DNA of 64,000 nt from NCBI GenBank assembly GCA_019637445.1, contig JAHBVS010000001.1, positions 1,399,586-1,463,585 of the forward strand, read 5' to 3'. Under the pieces are notes generated by a model, which had not been told where the DNA came from, did not search any database, and worked only from the letters and a program-made list of their open reading frames with translations. Position 1 is the stretch's first letter, and each line of letters opens with the position of its first letter. Below, in pieces: positions 1 to 26,569 of this stretch. The stretch comes from Gemmatimonadaceae bacterium (GTDB taxonomy: Bacteria > Gemmatimonadota > Gemmatimonadetes > Gemmatimonadales > Gemmatimonadaceae). The position numbers were made by a program, and so were the translations under genes.

Positions 1-628
1 AGTAATGCCCTTCCGGCACGACGAAGGGTCCCCAGTCGTCGAGCGTCGGTCGCGCTGGTGCCGGCCCGAATCTCGTGCTGTCGAGGGACACGCGGGTCTG
101 CCAGGCGAAGGCAGGGTCGCTCCAATCACCCGGCGCCCCGTCGGCAGCGGCCGCGTAGCCAAGTCGCTGCGGCACGCCGTCGACGTGGACCACGCCCTCG
201 CGCGAGTACAGGGTGTCGCCGGGCATCCCGATCATGCGCTTCACGACCGTCGGCGTCGGGTCGTTCGGGTCAAACACGCGCGAGATGCGCCAGTCCTGGA
301 ACGGCGACACGAACACGACCACGTCCCCACGCCGCGGCTCGGCGTACCCGGGCAGGCGGGTCTGCGTGAACGGCACGTGCGGGCCGAATCGCAGCTTGTT
401 CACGAACAGCCAATCGCCCACGAGCAGCGTGGGAATCATCGAGCCCGAGGGAATGCGGTAGGCCTCGAGGAGGAAGGTGCGCAGGAGCAGGAAGATCGCG
501 ACCGTCGCCGCGAGGGACTTGAATCCCTCCCAGAACTTCCTCGGGTCCACGCGTGGGCCGCCACCGCTCCGGGCGGCAGCGACGACGTTCTTGGGCTTGC
601 TGGCGGCAGAGGGGCGCTTCTTGGCCAC
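1..628 (-). CDS. lepB: Signal peptidase I, 3' end beyond window
   Basis: Type I signal peptidase, the membrane serine protease that removes signal peptides from exported proteins on the periplasmic side of the inner membrane. The sequence shows a basic N-terminal tail, one membrane segment (about residues 38-55), then the SGSMIPT box with the catalytic Ser at about residue 63 and the VVKRMIGMPGD box with the general-base Lys at about 130. These correspond to Ser90 and Lys145 of E. coli LepB. The C-terminus runs off the left edge. I chose the GTG at 628 because no ATG is available; in-frame TTG and CTG codons slightly upstream are alternatives. A terminator of the upstream SWIB gene separates the two genes. 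Confidence 0.93.
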   Translation of the reverse strand, partial: MAKKRPSAASKPKNVVAAARSGGGPRVDPRKFWEGFKSLAATVAIFLLLRTFLLEAYRIPSGSMIPTLLVGDWLFVNKLRFGPHVPFTQTRLPGYAEPRRGDVVVFVSPFQDWRISRVFDPNDPTPTVVKRMIGMPGDTLYSREGVVHVDGVPQRLGYAAAADGAPGDWSDPAFAWQTRVSLDSTRFGPAPARPTLDDWGPFVVPEGHY

Positions 629-18153: not shown

Positions 18154-19275
18154 TCAGCGCTGGGCGGTGTCGGACGGCACGCTCACGCGGAGCGGCGTCC
18201 CGGAAGAAATGCCGAGGGCCGCACCGACGAGGATCGTGTCCCCGACGGCGAGCCCGCTGATGATCTCGATGCGCTCGCTGGCGGCGTCGCGCACGCCAAG
18301 CGAGACAGTGACGCGTTCGGTGCGTCCGTCCTTCAATCGAACGACCTCAGGCGCCAGCCCGCGCTGATCGACCGCCGTCACGGGCACCGTGAGCGCCGCG
18401 CGCTCCTCGGACGCCACCCGACCTTCAGCGAACAGCCCCGCCACCAGGCGCTGGCCCGCATTGGGGATGCGAACAAACAGTCGCACCTGGCGCGTCTGTG
18501 GGTCGGCCTGCGGATTCACGCCGGCCACGCGGCCTTCGAACGTGCGACCCGGATAACCCGTGACCGAGAACGTCACGCGCGCACCCACACGCAGCATCGC
18601 GAGGTCGCTCGCGGGCACGGCGGCCTCGAGACGCATCGTGCTTGGGTCGACCACGGCAAACAGCGGTGCACCCGGCGCGACGATGTCACCCGGATTGATG
18701 TAGCGGTCCGAGACCACGCCGTCGTAGGGCGCGAGCACGTTTGCCGCATCGCGCTGCTTCTCGGCGCCCGACAGGCGGGCGCGCGCATCGTCGAGCATCG
18801 AGCGCGCCGAGAGATCCGCCCGACGGGCATTCTCGAGGTCGCGGTCGGAGATGGCGCCGGCCGCGTGCAGCTTCGTTGCGCGGTCCAACTCGCGGGCCGC
18901 GAGGTCCGCCGCGGTCTGCGCCGCCGTGAAGCCTGAGCGCGCCGAGAGGTACGCGTCATTGATGGCGCGGTCGTCGATCTTGGCCAGCGAGGTACCGGCC
19001 TTGACCACGTCACCGGGATCATGGGTCACCGTCAACACGGCGCCCGGCACCTCAGCGCGGATCTGCGCTGTGCGCTCGGCCACCAAGGTGCCGGAGAGCA
19101 TCGGACCGAGCGCGAGCGTCGTCCGCTCGGCCACGGCGATGGCCTCAGGCCCGACGGCGACCGTGGGGCGCGAGTCCGAGGCAGCGTCCTCGGCGGCATC
19201 GCCACGACCGCAGGCAGCAGCGGCGAGCGACAGGGCAAGGACGGTACGTGCAGCGAACAGCGGGAAGCGAGACAT
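18154..19275 (-). CDS. RND periplasmic adaptor lipoprotein (MFP/HlyD family)
   Basis: A 373-residue membrane-fusion protein that should link the pump to the TolC channel. It has a lipoprotein signal ending LAAAAC, a lipoyl half-motif (GTLVAERTAQIRAEVPGAV), a helical hairpin (about residues 85-160), a second lipoyl half (VLAPYDGVVSDRYI) and beta-barrel and membrane-proximal segments. Start choice is uncertain. The ATG at 19275 gives an ideal signal peptide and has GGGGGA 9 bases upstream. An in-frame ATG at 19350 overlaps the upstream stop as TGATG and has a strong GGAGG site, but would add 25 atypical residues before the signal. The gene sits between the TetR-TolC and pump genes. Confidence 0.93.
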   Translation of the reverse strand: MSRFPLFAARTVLALSLAAAACGRGDAAEDAASDSRPTVAVGPEAIAVAERTTLALGPMLSGTLVAERTAQIRAEVPGAVLTVTHDPGDVVKAGTSLAKIDDRAINDAYLSARSGFTAAQTAADLAARELDRATKLHAAGAISDRDLENARRADLSARSMLDDARARLSGAEKQRDAANVLAPYDGVVSDRYINPGDIVAPGAPLFAVVDPSTMRLEAAVPASDLAMLRVGARVTFSVTGYPGRTFEGRVAGVNPQADPQTRQVRLFVRIPNAGQRLVAGLFAEGRVASEERAALTVPVTAVDQRGLAPEVVRLKDGRTERVTVSLGVRDAASERIEIISGLAVGDTILVGAALGISSGTPLRVSVPSDTAQR

Positions 19276-19349
19276 CGAAGCCATCCCCCGACGGGCGGGT
19301 GTGGAGGTGTTGGATTGCAGGTATGAACAGACGAAGAGGTGGCCAGGCA

Positions 19350-21338
19350 TCAGCGGGCACCTCCGATTGCGAGCGGAAGGTCCTTCAGCAGGGCGAGGCG
19401 CAGTCGTGCGACCTCGAGATCGCGCGCCGTGGTGACACGCTGCAGGCGCGCCTGCTCCAGCTGCACGCGTGCCTCCGTCAGCTCGACGGGCGTCGAAATG
19501 CCTTCGGCGAAGCGCACTTCGGCGATGCGGTAGGCTTGCTCTGCCTGCGCGTCCGTGCCGACCGCCGCGAGATACGCGGCCTGCGCCTGCTCGAACGCCG
19601 TCACGGAGAGAATGGCGTCGAGCTCGGCGCCATCGCGCGCCTGCTCGAGCCGCGCCCGCGCCTCGAGCACGTTCGACTGCGCCACGGCGCGCTCACCGCT
19701 CACGCGGCCGCCGGTAAAGATCGGGAACGAGAGGCCGAGCGTGACGTTCCAGTTCGGGAAGTAGAGGTCGAGCGAACCCGGCAGGAAGGTGCCTTCCGGC
19801 GGATAGGCGAAGCGCTGGTAGGTCGTGCTGAGCTGCAGGTTGGGCAGCGGCGCGAGGCGTGCTGCCGTCAACGCGCGCTCCGACGCCTCGAGCTGCGCCG
19901 TGGCCTGTCGCACGGTGGCGCGGGCCTCGACTGCCGTGTCCGGCGTGACGGTGCGGGCGGCGTCCAGCGCCACCGGCGCCAATGCCGGCGTCACCATCGA
20001 CGAGTCGTCGCGGATCGGCGTGGTCAGCGTGAGCGGCGTGTTGAGCGGGAGTTCGAGCAACTGCTTGAGCCGCAGCTGCGCGGCCGTGCGGTTGCCCGTT
20101 GCCTGAATGGCGAGTGGACGTTGGTTGTCGCGCGTCACACGCGCTCGCAGCAGGTCGAACTCCGACGCCGTGCCGACTGAGCGTGCCAGCTCTACCTGTC
20201 GCAACGTGCGCTCCGTGAGCGCCAGGGTCGAGTCGGCGATGTCCTTCAGCCGCTCGGCTGCGACGGCGTCGAAGTACGCTTGCGCCACGTCCAGCAACGC
20301 CTGCGCGCGCGCCGAGCTGAGCTGGATGCTCGCGGCCTCGGACCCCGCGCGGGCGCCGGCGCGTGCCGCGCTCACCTTGCCGCCCGTCCACAGGTTCTGC
20401 GTGGCCGAGACCGTGAACGTGAAGGTGTTCGGCGCCGCGAAGATCTGCGCCAGCGGCGAGTTCTCGAGTCCCCCACCGCTGCTCGTGCCCGTGTCCGGCG
20501 CGAAGCGTTCGGAGATGGCCTGGAACTGATTCTGAATGGCACGCTGGTATGCGGCCGTACCGTTCACCTGCGGCAGCCGCTGCGCGTCGGCCTGCCGCAT
20601 CTGGCCCGCGGCACGCTGGGTACCGGCCTCGGCGATGCGCACCGACAAGGATCGGCGCTCGGCAAGCTGAAGCGCGTCGGCCAGCGAGAGTGGGGTCGCG
20701 GCGGGCTGGGCAGGCTGCTGAGCGAGCGCCCCCGTGAGTGGCAGCACGAGCAGCAACAGCGCGGCGAGCGTCGCGCCGATGGATTTGAGGAAGAGTCGCA
20801 CGTAAGTGGCTGGGGCCGTCCGTTCGGGTGGAAAAGACTCGGGCATCATGTCGCGTCCCATCGCGTCGGCGAACAGGGTGCCCATCAGCATCGCGGCGGC
20901 AGGCTTCGCGTCGTCAGCGGACGGAATGAAGCCGCCTGCAGCGAGTCGCTCGATGTAGCGCGTGAGTGCTTGGAACGACTTGGAGGGATGGTCGGCGGCG
21001 GTGCCCGCACACTCGGGGCGCTCCGCCATCTCTGCCATCGACATTCGGATCATCCCGCGAATCTCGAGCATGAAACGATGGTCCTGCTCCGCCCAGGCGG
21101 TGAGTTCGCGCACCGGATCCTGCGGCGTCTCCGGCAGCTTCGCGCGGCTACCGACTTTGGAGACGGCTTCGACCGCCGCTTCAATGAGCGCGGCCTTCGA
21201 GCCGAAGAGACGAAACAGTGTGACTTCGTTGACACCAGCAGCCTCGGCGATCTTGCGCGTCGTGGCGCCGCGGAAACCGGATTCCGCGTAGACGCGCACC
21301 GCGGCGTCGAGCAGCTGCTGCTTTGTTGGTTCAGACAT
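19350..21338 (-). CDS. TetR regulator fused in frame to TolC outer-membrane channel
   Basis: A single 662-codon reading frame encodes two complete proteins. Residues 1 to about 190 are a TetR-family repressor: helix-turn-helix TTRKIAEAAGVNEVTLFRLF, then a ligand-binding helical domain ending YVRLFLKSIG. This last helix runs directly into a hydrophobic stretch and a signal-peptidase-like site (TGALA, cleavage after about residue 206). Residues 207-662 are a full-length TolC-family channel with two repeats (SLADALQLAERRSL, LYFPNWNVTLGLSFPIFTGG). An internal GTG at 20801 (residue 180) would yield a perfect signal peptide plus TolC, but no ribosome-binding sequence precedes it. The ATG at 21338 begins a normal TetR N-terminus; an ATG at 21359 is an alternative. 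Product topology requires cleavage or internal initiation. Confidence 0.88.
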   Translation of the reverse strand: MSEPTKQQLLDAAVRVYAESGFRGATTRKIAEAAGVNEVTLFRLFGSKAALIEAAVEAVSKVGSRAKLPETPQDPVRELTAWAEQDHRFMLEIRGMIRMSMAEMAERPECAGTAADHPSKSFQALTRYIERLAAGGFIPSADDAKPAAAMLMGTLFADAMGRDMMPESFPPERTAPATYVRLFLKSIGATLAALLLLVLPLTGALAQQPAQPAATPLSLADALQLAERRSLSVRIAEAGTQRAAGQMRQADAQRLPQVNGTAAYQRAIQNQFQAISERFAPDTGTSSGGGLENSPLAQIFAAPNTFTFTVSATQNLWTGGKVSAARAGARAGSEAASIQLSSARAQALLDVAQAYFDAVAAERLKDIADSTLALTERTLRQVELARSVGTASEFDLLRARVTRDNQRPLAIQATGNRTAAQLRLKQLLELPLNTPLTLTTPIRDDSSMVTPALAPVALDAARTVTPDTAVEARATVRQATAQLEASERALTAARLAPLPNLQLSTTYQRFAYPPEGTFLPGSLDLYFPNWNVTLGLSFPIFTGGRVSGERAVAQSNVLEARARLEQARDGAELDAILSVTAFEQAQAAYLAAVGTDAQAEQAYRIAEVRFAEGISTPVELTEARVQLEQARLQRVTTARDLEVARLRLALLKDLPLAIGGAR

Positions 21339-21374: not shown

Positions 21375-21394
21375 AAGCAAGCGAACACTTGCTT
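21375..21394. promoter_or_regulatory. Putative TetR operator
   Basis: AAGCAAG and CTTGCTT form a 7-bp inverted repeat with a 6-bp spacer, 16 bases upstream of the alternative ATG (21359) of the TetR-TolC gene. The 20-bp length and half-site symmetry fit TetR-family operators, and the position suits autorepression of the efflux operon. A weaker, overlapping CGCTT/AAGCG repeat (21365-21383) may form a second half-site pair. The assignment is inference from position and symmetry. The rest of 21395-21573 is the divergent upstream region shared with msrB. Confidence 0.6.
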
Positions 21395-21573
21395 ACAACG
21401 AAAGGGGTCGTGTCAGGGTTTCACCGTAACGAAATGCGCGAACTCGGATCTGGGAGCCGACATCTTTCGGTATTTGTTCGGCATTGTCAAGCAGCGGAAC
21501 CGGACGCCGCCTCCACCGGTTGCTCGCGAAGGACTCGTATCCCATTGTCCAGAATCATCTTCCGGCTCCAACA

Positions 21574-22032
21574 ATGAAGCGAAAGCCAGACGACCCCGAG
21601 CTCGCCGCCAAGCTCTCCCCGATGCAGTACGAGGTCACGCAGTGCAGCGCGACCGAGCCGCCGTTCCGCAATGAGTTCTGGAATCACCACGAGCCTGGCA
21701 TCTATGTGGACGTCGTCTCGGGCGAGCCGCTCTTTGCCTCGACGGACAAGTTCGACTCGGGCACCGGCTGGCCCTCGTTCACCAAGCCGCTCGTTGAGGG
21801 TCAGGTGACGGCGCAGGAGGATTCCTCGCACGGCATGCGCCGCGTCGAGGTGCGTTCGAAGGACGCCGACTCACACCTCGGCCACGTCTTTCCCGATGGC
21901 CCGGGTCCCCATGGCATGCGCTACTGCATCAACTCCGCGTCGCTGCGCTTCGTCCCGGCGGCGCGTCTGGCAGCCGAGGGCTATGAGCGCTTCTCGGCGT
22001 TGTTTCCAGGCGTGACGCAGGAGTCCGCGTGA
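21574..22032 (+). CDS. msrB: Peptide-methionine (R)-S-oxide reductase
   Basis: A 152-residue MsrB that reduces the R-epimer of methionine sulfoxide. Diagnostic segments are [31 protein letters not shown] and the active-site [11 protein letters not shown] with the catalytic Cys at about residue 118. The two CxxC zinc pairs found in one MsrB subclass are absent, so this is the zinc-free type. The resolving Cys may be C24 in VTQC. There is no signal peptide, so it should be cytoplasmic. The ATG at 21574 is the only start that gives a standard N-terminus. It overlaps msrA by 4 bases (GTGA), forming a two-gene repair operon. Confidence 0.95.
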
Positions 22033-22562
22033 GCACGCAGCTCGCCACGTTGGGCGGCGGATGCTTCTGGTGCCTCGAAGCCGTCTACCTCGAGTTGCGC
22101 GGTGTACACGGCGTGAAGAGCGGCTACGCCGGCGGCCACGTTCCGAACCCGACGTATGAACAGGTTTGCGGGAAGCAGACGGGCCACACCGAAGTCGTGC
22201 AGGTCAGCTTCGACGCGTCAGAGATCTCCTACGGCGACTTGCTCGACGTGTTCTTCACGATCCACGACCCCACGACGAAGGACCGTCAGGGCAACGATGT
22301 CGGCCCGCAGTATCGCTCGGCAATCTTCACGCACGACGATGAGCAGGCGCGCATCGCCCGCGAGAAGGTGGCCGCAGCGCAGGCGCACTGGGCCGACCCC
22401 GTCGTGACTGAGCTTGCGCCGCTCGACCGGTTCTGGCCCGCCGAGTCGTACCACGACAACTACCTCGCGCGGAATCCGCAGAATCCGTACTGCGCGGTGG
22501 TGGTGGCCCCGAAGGTATCGAAGGCGCGCAAGCTGTTCTTCGATCGGCTGAAGCGTCCCTGA
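22029..22562 (+). CDS. msrA: Peptide-methionine (S)-S-oxide reductase
   Basis: A 177-residue MsrA that reduces the S-epimer of methionine sulfoxide using thioredoxin. The catalytic motif GGCFWCLE is present with the nucleophilic Cys at about residue 12, followed by the family segments [39 protein letters not shown] and PQYRSAIF. The start is GTG at 22029, overlapping the msrB stop by 4 bases, so expression is coupled. Together the pair covers both sulfoxide epimers. The protein is cytoplasmic (no signal). Confidence 0.96.
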
Positions 22563-23425: not shown

Positions 23426-26400
23426 ATGACGACTCTGCTCGCGCTGCTCTTTGTCCTCTCCGGTGCTGCCGGACTCATCTACGAGAGCATCTGGAGCCGC
23501 TACCTCGGGCTCCTTGTCGGCCACAGCGCCTACGCCCAGGTCATCGTCCTCGTAATCTTCCTGGGCGGGATGTCGGCGGGCGCCGCGCTCGCGGCGCGGC
23601 GATCCACGCAGGTTCGGTCGCCCTTGCTGTGGTACGCGGCCGTCGAAGGCATCGTCGGTGTGATTGGGCTGCTGTTCCACGATGTCTTTTCTTTCGCGAG
23701 CGGTTTCGCGTACGACACGCTGTTCCCTGCGCTCGGCGGCGGCGCCACGCTGCTCGTCGGCAAGTGGCTGCTGGCCGCGCTGCTCATCGTGCCGCAGTCG
23801 GTGCTACTCGGCACGACCTTCCCGTTGATGACCGCCGGCGTGCTGCGGCGGCTCGGGGATCCCGCCGCGCAGCTGGCCGGGTCGGGACAGGTGTTGGGCC
23901 TTCTCTACTTCGCGAACTCGCTTGGCGCCGCCATCGGCGTCTTGGTGTCTGGTTTCTATCTCATTGGACTCGCCGGACTGCCGGGCACCCTTGTGGTCGC
24001 GGCGGTCCTCAACCTCGTCGTCGCGCTCGGCACCTTTGGCGTGGTGCGGCTTGCGCAGGACGATGAGGAAAGCGCGTTCGCCGCGGCGGTACCGGGCACC
24101 GAGGCCGCGGGCGACGATCGCACTTCGGCCTCTCCTGCACTCGTGGACGAGGCCGTCGCGCCGGTCGGCAGCGGCGACCTGCAGGGTGCCGGCGTTCGCG
24201 TCCAGCTCATCCGGCTTTTGCTCGCCGTCAGCTTCGGCACCGCCGTCGCCTCGTTCATCTACGAGATCGCCTGGATCCGGATGCTCTCGCTGGTGCTCGG
24301 CAGCGCCACGCACGCGTTCGAGTTGATGCTCTCGGCCTTCATCCTTGGACTGGCGCTGGGCGCGCTGTACGTGCGGAACCTCGCCGACGAGGCGCACGAC
24401 ACGCTGCGCCTGCTCGGCGTCGTGCAGTTCGCGATGGGCGCGCTGGCCATTGCGACGCTTGGACTCTACCTCGGTGCCTTTGATTGGATGGCCGGGCTGA
24501 TGCAGACCGTCCAGCGCAACGAGCCCGGCTATGCCGTGTTTAACCTGGCGCGCTACGGGTTTGCGCTGGCCGTGATGCTGCCCTCGACCTTCTGCGCGGG
24601 CATGACCCTGCCGTTGATCACGCGCGGCTTGCTGGGCGCGGGTGCCGGTGAGCGCGCCATCGGGACGGTGTACGCGTGGAACACGCTGGGATCGATCGTT
24701 GGGGTGGCGCTCGCCTCGCTGATCCTGCTGCCCTTCCTCGGCCTGCGCGGACTGCTCATCCTCGGCGGCGCCTTGGACATCGCGCTCGGGGTGTGGCTGC
24801 TCTGGTGGCGGGCCCGCGATGTGAGCGACCTGCGGCGCACGGCGACGCTGGCGCTCGTCGCCGGCGCGGCGGTCGTGCTCGGTGCCGTACTTTCGCCCGC
24901 GTTCGACCTCACCACGCTGACCAGCGGCGTGTTCCGCTACGGCGCCGTGCCGGAAGTCGGCTCGCGTGACATTCGCTTCTACAAGGATGGGCGCACGGCC
25001 TCGGTCAGCGTGCAGTTCGGCGGCGATAGCGGCTTCACAATTGCCACGAACGGCAAGCCCGACGCCTCGCTGACGCGACACTGGTTCCGCGAACTGCCAG
25101 CGGACGTCGATCCCTTGGATCGTCCCGCGTTGCGAGGCGATGACGCCACGCAGCTGCTGCTGCCGATGATCACGCTGGCGCACGCACCGCAAGCAAGGGA
25201 ATTGGCGGTCATCGGACACGGCAGCGGGATGTCCTCGCATCTGCTGCTCGGGTCTCCGCAGGTAGAGCGCGTCACGACAATCGACATCGAACCGCAGATG
25301 GTCGAGGCCTCGCGATTGCTGCTGCCGATAAATCGTCGCGTGTTCGAGGACCCGCGCTCGACGTTCGTGTTCGACGACGCCAAGTCGTACTTCGCGGCGG
25401 CGGGCCGCCAGTTCGACCTGATCCTCTCCGAGCCGTCGAACCCCTGGGTGAGCGGCGTGTCGGGCCTCTTCACGGATGAGTTCTACGCGCGGGTGTCCGG
25501 TTATCTCGCGCCCGGTGGCGTCTTCGGTCAGTGGCTGCACCTCTACGAGATCGAGGACGAGTTGGTCCTCAGCGTGTTGATCGCACTCGACCGCCACTTC
25601 GCTTCCTACTCGCTGTTTTTGACGAACGACGTCGACTTGCTGGTTGTCGCGTCGAACGCGGAGTCGCTGCCGCGCCCCGACTGGTCGGTGTTCGCCTCCG
25701 AAGCGATTTCGCAGGATCTCGCACGCTTTCGGCCCATCACCCCGCGGTTGCTTGAAGGCACGCGGCTCATCACCTCGGACGAACTGCGCCCGCTCCTGAG
25801 CGGCGCCGAGGGTGTCAACAGCGATTTCTATCCGCGGCTGGACCTTGGCGCGGAACGCGCGCGATTCCTCGGACACGAGGCCCGGGGCCTCAGTATCCTG
25901 CCGGTCGAGCGCTACGACCTCGCGGCGGCGCTTGGCGGCCGCGTGATCGCGCCCCTGAACGACCCAGCGCCGGCGCTCACGCACAATCGCTTCATCGCGC
26001 AGGGGATCGCGACGCGGCTCGCGCGCGAGGATGCCCGCGTGGACACGACCGACGCCACGCGACGCCTGCGTGTGGCACGCCTGCGCCTGCAGCGCCTGCG
26101 CCTGGAGTGGGCCAGCGGCCAGGCACCGGTGGATTGGCAGCTCTGGCTAGCCGAGGCGCTGGCGGTCGAGCGCGACCTGCACCAGGGCACGATGGGTGGC
26201 GTGTATACCTGGTACTACGAGGCGATGGAGCGCTACATGGCGCGCGCTGGCGCACCTGAGGGTGCGCAGTCTGCGGTGCGCTTCCTGCGCGCCGCCTCCA
26301 GCTACGAGTGGGCGGCGGCGAACGCGGAGATTCCGACGCAGATCGAGGAACGTGACCGCGGCATCGCGTGGTTGGCGCCAGGCCTGTTCATTGATGCCGC

Positions 26401-26569
26401 AGTCGTCACGCGCCTTAAGGTCGGTGATGTGCACGGCGCGCGCGCCGCACTGACGCGCTTGGCCACCTCGAGTGGTCGCGCCCCCGACGACCTGCGGACG
26501 CTGTTGCTGGGCGCGCACGTCGCGGCGGCCGAACGTGCACGCGACGGGGAACGCCCGACAGCGCCGTAG
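23426..26569 (+). CDS. Fused MFS-type transporter/spermidine synthase-like protein
   Basis: A 1047-residue fusion. Residues 1 to about 490 contain around 14 hydrophobic segments in two blocks (each begins GxxxxxYExxW: LIYESIWSRYLGLLVG and FIYEIAWIRMLSLVLG). Residues about 585-760 form a spermidine-synthase-like Rossmann domain with a SAM-binding GHGSGMSSHLL, acidic DIEPQM and FDDAKSYF. The catalytic loop reads LSEPSNPWVSG rather than the canonical Asp-containing loop, typical of the membrane-fused branch, so true polyamine synthesis is uncertain. A C-terminal extension of about 250 residues is Arg-rich and helical. No SpeD (AdoMet decarboxylase) gene is nearby. Substrate and direction of transport are unknown. 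Confidence 0.85.
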   Translation: MTTLLALLFVLSGAAGLIYESIWSRYLGLLVGHSAYAQVIVLVIFLGGMSAGAALAARRSTQVRSPLLWYAAVEGIVGVIGLLFHDVFSFASGFAYDTLFPALGGGATLLVGKWLLAALLIVPQSVLLGTTFPLMTAGVLRRLGDPAAQLAGSGQVLGLLYFANSLGAAIGVLVSGFYLIGLAGLPGTLVVAAVLNLVVALGTFGVVRLAQDDEESAFAAAVPGTEAAGDDRTSASPALVDEAVAPVGSGDLQGAGVRVQLIRLLLAVSFGTAVASFIYEIAWIRMLSLVLGSATHAFELMLSAFILGLALGALYVRNLADEAHDTLRLLGVVQFAMGALAIATLGLYLGAFDWMAGLMQTVQRNEPGYAVFNLARYGFALAVMLPSTFCAGMTLPLITRGLLGAGAGERAIGTVYAWNTLGSIVGVALASLILLPFLGLRGLLILGGALDIALGVWLLWWRARDVSDLRRTATLALVAGAAVVLGAVLSPAFDLTTLTSGVFRYGAVPEVGSRDIRFYKDGRTASVSVQFGGDSGFTIATNGKPDASLTRHWFRELPADVDPLDRPALRGDDATQLLLPMITLAHAPQARELAVIGHGSGMSSHLLLGSPQVERVTTIDIEPQMVEASRLLLPINRRVFEDPRSTFVFDDAKSYFAAAGRQFDLILSEPSNPWVSGVSGLFTDEFYARVSGYLAPGGVFGQWLHLYEIEDELVLSVLIALDRHFASYSLFLTNDVDLLVVASNAESLPRPDWSVFASEAISQDLARFRPITPRLLEGTRLITSDELRPLLSGAEGVNSDFYPRLDLGAERARFLGHEARGLSILPVERYDLAAALGGRVIAPLNDPAPALTHNRFIAQGIATRLAREDARVDTTDATRRLRVARLRLQRLRLEWASGQAPVDWQLWLAEALAVERDLHQGTMGGVYTWYYEAMERYMARAGAPEGAQSAVRFLRAASSYEWAAANAEIPTQIEERDRGIAWLAPGLFIDAAVVTRLKVGDVHGARAALTRLATSSGRAPDDLRTLLLGAHVAAAERARDGERPTAP

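Follow-up and report, generated by a model that had tools for sequence, protein, structure and literature searches.

A TetR-type repressor and a TolC-type efflux channel encoded in one reading frame in Gemmatimonadaceae

What becomes of a DNA-binding repressor that is apparently translated ahead of an outer-membrane protein, as its cytoplasmic N-terminal part? The question is raised by a locus in the window, i.e., the whole 64,000-nucleotide stretch of a Gemmatimonadaceae genome analyzed here. On its minus strand, one stop-free frame of 662 codons, running from an ATG at 21338 to a TGA at 19350, was read in the initial annotation as a full TetR regulator followed by a full TolC channel, heading its own pump operon and preceded by a palindrome. 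We analyzed the architecture of this frame, its distribution among genomes, the palindrome, and the likely fate of the two halves.

Architecture of the fused gene

The reading of two full proteins in a single frame was borne out by the ORF itself and by Pfam, AlphaFold and Foldseek. Along the 662-aa protein, a nine-helix TetR domain is followed by a signal peptide and then by a TolC channel, each domain being complete (Table 1). Pfam placed TetR_N (PF00440) at residues 9-55 (8e-14; 51.5 bits against a cut-off of 24) and OEP (PF02321) in two stretches (1.5e-51). The AlphaFold model of the fusion, based on an 83-row alignment of relatives, had a mean pLDDT of 91.8. In this model, the TetR part forms the full nine-helix domain (helices 6-186, pLDDT mostly >90), the TolC half adopts the full TolC fold, and a low-confidence segment lies at about residues 190-210, over the signal peptide. 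Foldseek matched the first half to MexL and NalC, both TetR repressors, and the TolC half to TolC, OprM, CusC and CmeC. The all-helical ligand/dimer domain (helices 4-9) is supported both by the model (residues 48-186) and by the matches to MexL and NalC. As had also been claimed, the fusion is the head of its own pump operon, in which a periplasmic adaptor and an RND pump follow.

Table 1. Features of the fused gene and its operon (window coordinates)
Feature	Position	Strand	Evidence or remark
Operator-like palindrome GCAAG-N6-CTTGC, about 40 bp upstream of repressor start	21377..21392		Conservation upstream of tetR
TetR repressor domain, residues 1-188, HTH and dimerisation helices	20775..21338	-	Pfam PF00440, AlphaFold, Foldseek, HTH omega
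Internal signal peptide (residues 180-206), which overlaps the last TetR helix at its end; cleavage predicted at ALA↓QQ	20721..20801	-	Sequence, x-A↓Q site, hydrophobic core, basic n-region
Mature TolC-type outer-membrane efflux channel, residues 207-662	19353..20720	-	Pfam OEP x2, AlphaFold, Foldseek to TolC, OprM, CusC
Stop codon TGA, one-base overlap with the ATG of the next gene	19350..19352	-	Sequence/ORF
Periplasmic adaptor (HlyD/CusB-type membrane fusion protein)	18154..19350	-	Pfam HlyD_D23, HlyD_3; follows the fusion in relatives
RND pump, AcrB type, 1052 aa	14985..18143	-	Pfam ACR_tran 9e-262; follows in relatives, 61-92% identical

Distribution and origins of the fusion

When GTDB genomes were searched at the protein level, one-frame fusions of whole length came up in Gemmatimonadota. 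Within the window's genus, the gene was present in 16 of 17 genomes and fused in all 16; the one genome without a match (G135) is 71% complete. Fourteen of these 16 genomes, the window's and 13 others, carry an intact fusion, while in G141 (L081) and G147 (L061/L092) frameshifts fall within the TolC half, away from the junction. These frameshifts may be draft-assembly error or decay. A second genus (g7) was mixed, with six of the 15 genomes with a match fused and nine separate, and a third was represented by one fused genome (G092), a single draft.

Separate loci numbered about 100: 43 belong to the family, and another 57 come from it and from other families of the class. In these, TetR and TolC lie near each other on one strand and share no open frame. 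At the 42 separate junctions that were read, a normal stop closes TetR before the TolC start or just overlaps that start. A search for further fusions in the phylum, covering 60 more loci mostly picked for their long open frames, gave 57 separate loci, three without a TetR match, and no fused one. Judged from the sequences compared, the fused gene is the product of two ancestrally adjacent genes of an RND-pump operon, tetR and tolC, merged into one frame.

We then built a maximum-likelihood tree of 63 loci, fused and separate. Four changes of fused/separate state are needed on this tree, of which the starred branches force three, and parsimony by itself cannot tell gains from losses among the four. 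A single fused clade was rejected (delta lnL 375, p-AU 9e-38); one origin for the two fused groups within g7 was not rejected (p 0.23). The junctions differ between groups. Fusions of the window's genus lack about 25 codons from the basic tail of TetR and the beginning of TolC, and the TetR helix runs directly into the hydrophobic core, whereas the g7 and G092 junctions keep the basic tail, e.g., GRRRAL or RKRTITRVQRAL. Since the linkers differ and separate relatives have a longer TetR tail, at least three independent fusions are favored, and the genes probably merged at least three times in this one family. The initial annotation had proposed looking for conservation of the fusion in related genomes, with relatives that are always separate counting against it. 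The fusion proved to be conserved throughout the genus and to occur in two others; outside the genus relatives are mostly separate, with probably at least two further origins.

Operator motif and the repressor half

The palindrome upstream of the gene reads AAGCAAGTGTTCGCTTGCTT, and no second perfect copy of its core occurs in the window. To within 170 bp upstream of tetR, a perfect GCAAG-N6-CTTGC was found in 21/23 fused and 39/43 separate loci, the others carrying one mismatch, and shuffled sequences rarely matched this conservation. What had been noticed as a single palindrome is, therefore, a family-wide operator-like motif. A motif of this kind would be expected as the operator of this TetR family, and we infer that the repressor binds to it. 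When the whole genome was searched for a second operator-regulated site, three perfect places were found (two besides this one), compared to two for a reversed-pattern control, i.e., no excess. In many relatives, two operator copies lie close together upstream of tetR (L049-L060 and others); an example is L057, with GCAAGTATCCGCTTGC and then GCAAGTGACCACTTGC, while the window has one clear copy.

We also analyzed selection on the DNA-binding part. In fused pairs with usable dS, omega of the HTH was 0.04-0.16, i.e., strong purifying selection, and the recognition helix VNEVTLFR was almost unchanged between fused and separate proteins. At the sensitivity used, the genome contained no other full-length relative of this TetR, the only match elsewhere being a 55-residue HTH. 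Together, the purifying selection on the HTH and the operator motif kept upstream make the repressor half of the fused genes look functional.

Export, translation start, and fate of the two halves

In the fusions, the TolC signal peptide with its x-A↓Q site is internal, behind TetR, instead of N-terminal. In the window it starts inside the last TetR helix (TYVRLFLKSIGATLAALLLLVLPLTGALA↓QQ; cut region …VRLFLKSIGATLAALLLLVLPLTGALA↓QQ). Nearly all relatives, whether fused or separate, retain an x-A↓Q or equivalent cleavage site, and nearly all fusions retain the basic n-region. One polypeptide carries a DNA-binding domain and a membrane helix (mean Kyte-Doolittle value of the core 2.6 in the intact fused set), and this core was slightly more hydrophobic in fusions than in separate tolC (2.61 vs. 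2.29, p 0.0016 with relatedness ignored).

We consider it fairly probable that the product is a precursor cut by signal peptidase I into free TolC and a TetR that the remaining signal peptide initially holds in the inner membrane. The ribosome would make TetR first, which would fold and dimerize in the cytoplasm; the internal signal peptide would then send TolC through Sec in N-in/C-out orientation, and signal peptidase I would cleave at ALA↓QQ. While TolC would proceed to the outer membrane, TetR would stay fixed to the inner membrane through the signal peptide left at its C-terminus. It would repress its own operon from there, or else once a site-2 protease (RseP-type) had cut the remnant helix and freed it. 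Nearly every completed repressor would be made along with one channel subunit. The genome encodes two signal peptidases I and three M50/S2P-type proteases. In Escherichia coli, RseP cuts type II remnants only once the mature periplasmic part has been detached (PMC10470546), and an RseP-type cut of the remnant would free TetR here. Such release may not be needed, since in Vibrio cholerae an engineered TetR anchored in the membrane (ChiS-TetR) is active on tetO (PMC11856585). The halves could also be split by a cytoplasmic protease instead of signal peptidase or a site-2 protease, and loss of the repressor after cleavage is possible.

The precursor model also allows for export-coupled autoregulation, which we put forward tentatively and regard as rather doubtful. 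Here, the repressor would act, or stop acting, only after TolC translocation and the signal-peptidase cut, and perhaps a site-2 cut, so that transcription of the operon would report the state of the secretion pathway, with repressor and channel made one to one.

Alternatively, translation of most TolC might begin within the TetR tail, at either GTG 20801 or upstream ATGs, with the read-through fusion as a tolerated by-product; we think this unlikely. The GTG at 20801 (Val180), which the initial annotation had proposed as a separate start for TolC, does exist, is well placed in the window, and is kept in 11 of the 14 intact genus genomes, and the MFPP ATG is found in most. As a general route to TolC, however, it was not supported, because the codon is GTC or GTT in L044-L046, the three closest relatives. 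A conserved internal GTG had appeared perfect in the first 13 fused loci and was given up once L044-L046 were added. TolC's own ATG was lost in 21/21 intact fusions. In these, the ATG nearest to the hydrophobic core lies 19-49 codons before it, compared to mostly 4-21 codons for separate tolC, and it is nearly always inside TetR sequence; such TetR-tail ATGs are older than the fusion, being also present in separate TetR proteins. No ATG, GTG or TTG occurs within 26, 41, and 48 codons before the core in L058, L060, and L074, respectively (gaps of about 27-49 codons), and in L057 and L059 the only ATGs lie inside the core or 40 codons upstream.

Shine-Dalgarno sites were found at 0/21 fused junctions, 8/42 separate tolC starts, and 16/33 long window ORFs; since the lineage uses such sites weakly, their absence at the junctions says little against internal initiation. 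Synonymous divergence at the junction was broadly like that of the rest of the gene and not clearly lower, giving no sign of a hidden start signal. A candidate conserved nucleotide element around TACGTGCGACTCTTCCT was likewise rejected, as L044-L046 lack it and the junction shows no clear drop in dS relative to other parts of the gene. Together, the loss of the TolC ATG in all 21 fusions and the missing GTG in the three nearest relatives argue that separate initiation is not the general explanation. Moreover, without a stop between the domains, nearly every completed TetR is still joined to the signal peptide and TolC. Start codons left in the TetR tail (MMP/MFPP ATGs, and the GTG in most of the genus) could yield some separate TolC with a long n-region; thus, part of the TolC in some species may come from internal starts, which would not explain the arrangement.

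We consider it less likely again that the fusion stays uncleaved or is split by cytoplasmic proteases, with TetR mostly destroyed, its sequence a relic leader, and the operon nearly constitutive. The linker and ligand domain do evolve faster in some pairs (ligand omega 0.39-0.43 for L001/L044 and L045/L046), as would suit a relic, but the HTH constraint, the near-unchanged recognition helix, and the operator motif kept in all fused loci argue otherwise, as do the complete predicted TetR fold and the retained signal-peptidase site. Finally, a sequencing or assembly artifact, or a stop-loss pseudogene in one strain, is scarcely credible. The frameshifts in G141 and G147 would suit it, although they lie in TolC and not at the junction; against it, the 14 intact genus genomes, some of them assembled in 1-7 contigs, hold fusions with 62-74% protein identity to that of the window and with selection on both halves.

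The cleaved-precursor reading can be set beside known systems. With AcrR/MexL/NalC-type TetR repressors of RND operons, the first half shares the HTH, the nine-helix fold, an operator palindrome at its own operon, and adjoining pump genes; those repressors are separate soluble proteins, whereas in the fusion an exported channel protein carries the repressor at its N-terminus. With TolC/OprM outer-membrane factors, the second half shares two OEP repeats, the full fold, an x-A↓Q signal peptide, and an adaptor and RND pump downstream. These factors normally open with their own signal peptide, which here is internal, after about 180 repressor residues.

The Bradyrhizobium FbcH cytochrome b/c1 is a polyprotein with an internal signal peptide, where signal peptidase cuts it in two. 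In hepatitis C core-E1 (PMC5402940), the signal peptide is also internal, and core remains fixed in the membrane up to its release by an intramembrane protease. Core-E1 shares with FbcH and with our fusion one frame, a cytoplasmic or membrane first part, an internal signal peptide, and an exported second part. The fusion differs in that its first part is the DNA-binding repressor of its own operon and that its cleavage is predicted. Two functional halves, as in a polyprotein, are suggested here by the open frame, selection on both halves, and loss of the TolC ATG. If the topology we propose is right, the fusion resembles the transmembrane transcriptional regulators ToxR, CadC, ChiS and TfoS in having a DNA-binding domain cytoplasmic to a membrane helix. 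Their DNA-binding domains are of other types, and these regulators remain intact in the membrane, whereas here the periplasmic part is an outer-membrane channel and is presumably cut off.

No report of a TetR-TolC fusion was found in the open-access literature, and unremarked records of this architecture may exist. Both halves belong to known families, and internal-signal polyproteins and membrane-bound regulators are known; a TetR autorepressor joined to the channel of its own operon is the combination for which we found no report. Since it probably has at least three origins in one family and is retained across a genus together with the operator motif, it has the look of an arrangement shaped by evolution. 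With it one can ask, in a natural setting, if a TetR tethered to the membrane is functional, if regulatory domains can be carried by the remnants of signal peptides, and if export can in turn influence transcription.

The window also holds genes around the operon. Divergent to the fusion, ORFs resembling methionine sulfoxide reductases B and A occupy 21484-22562 on the plus strand, so that the conserved operator motif has the pump operon on one side and oxidative-repair genes on the other. Farther along this strand (23426-26569) lies a 1047-aa ORF with many membrane segments and then, as judged by eye, a spermidine-synthase-like domain. A signal peptidase I gene (L120) is found at the left edge of the window (1-523, minus strand), about 14 kb from the pump operon.
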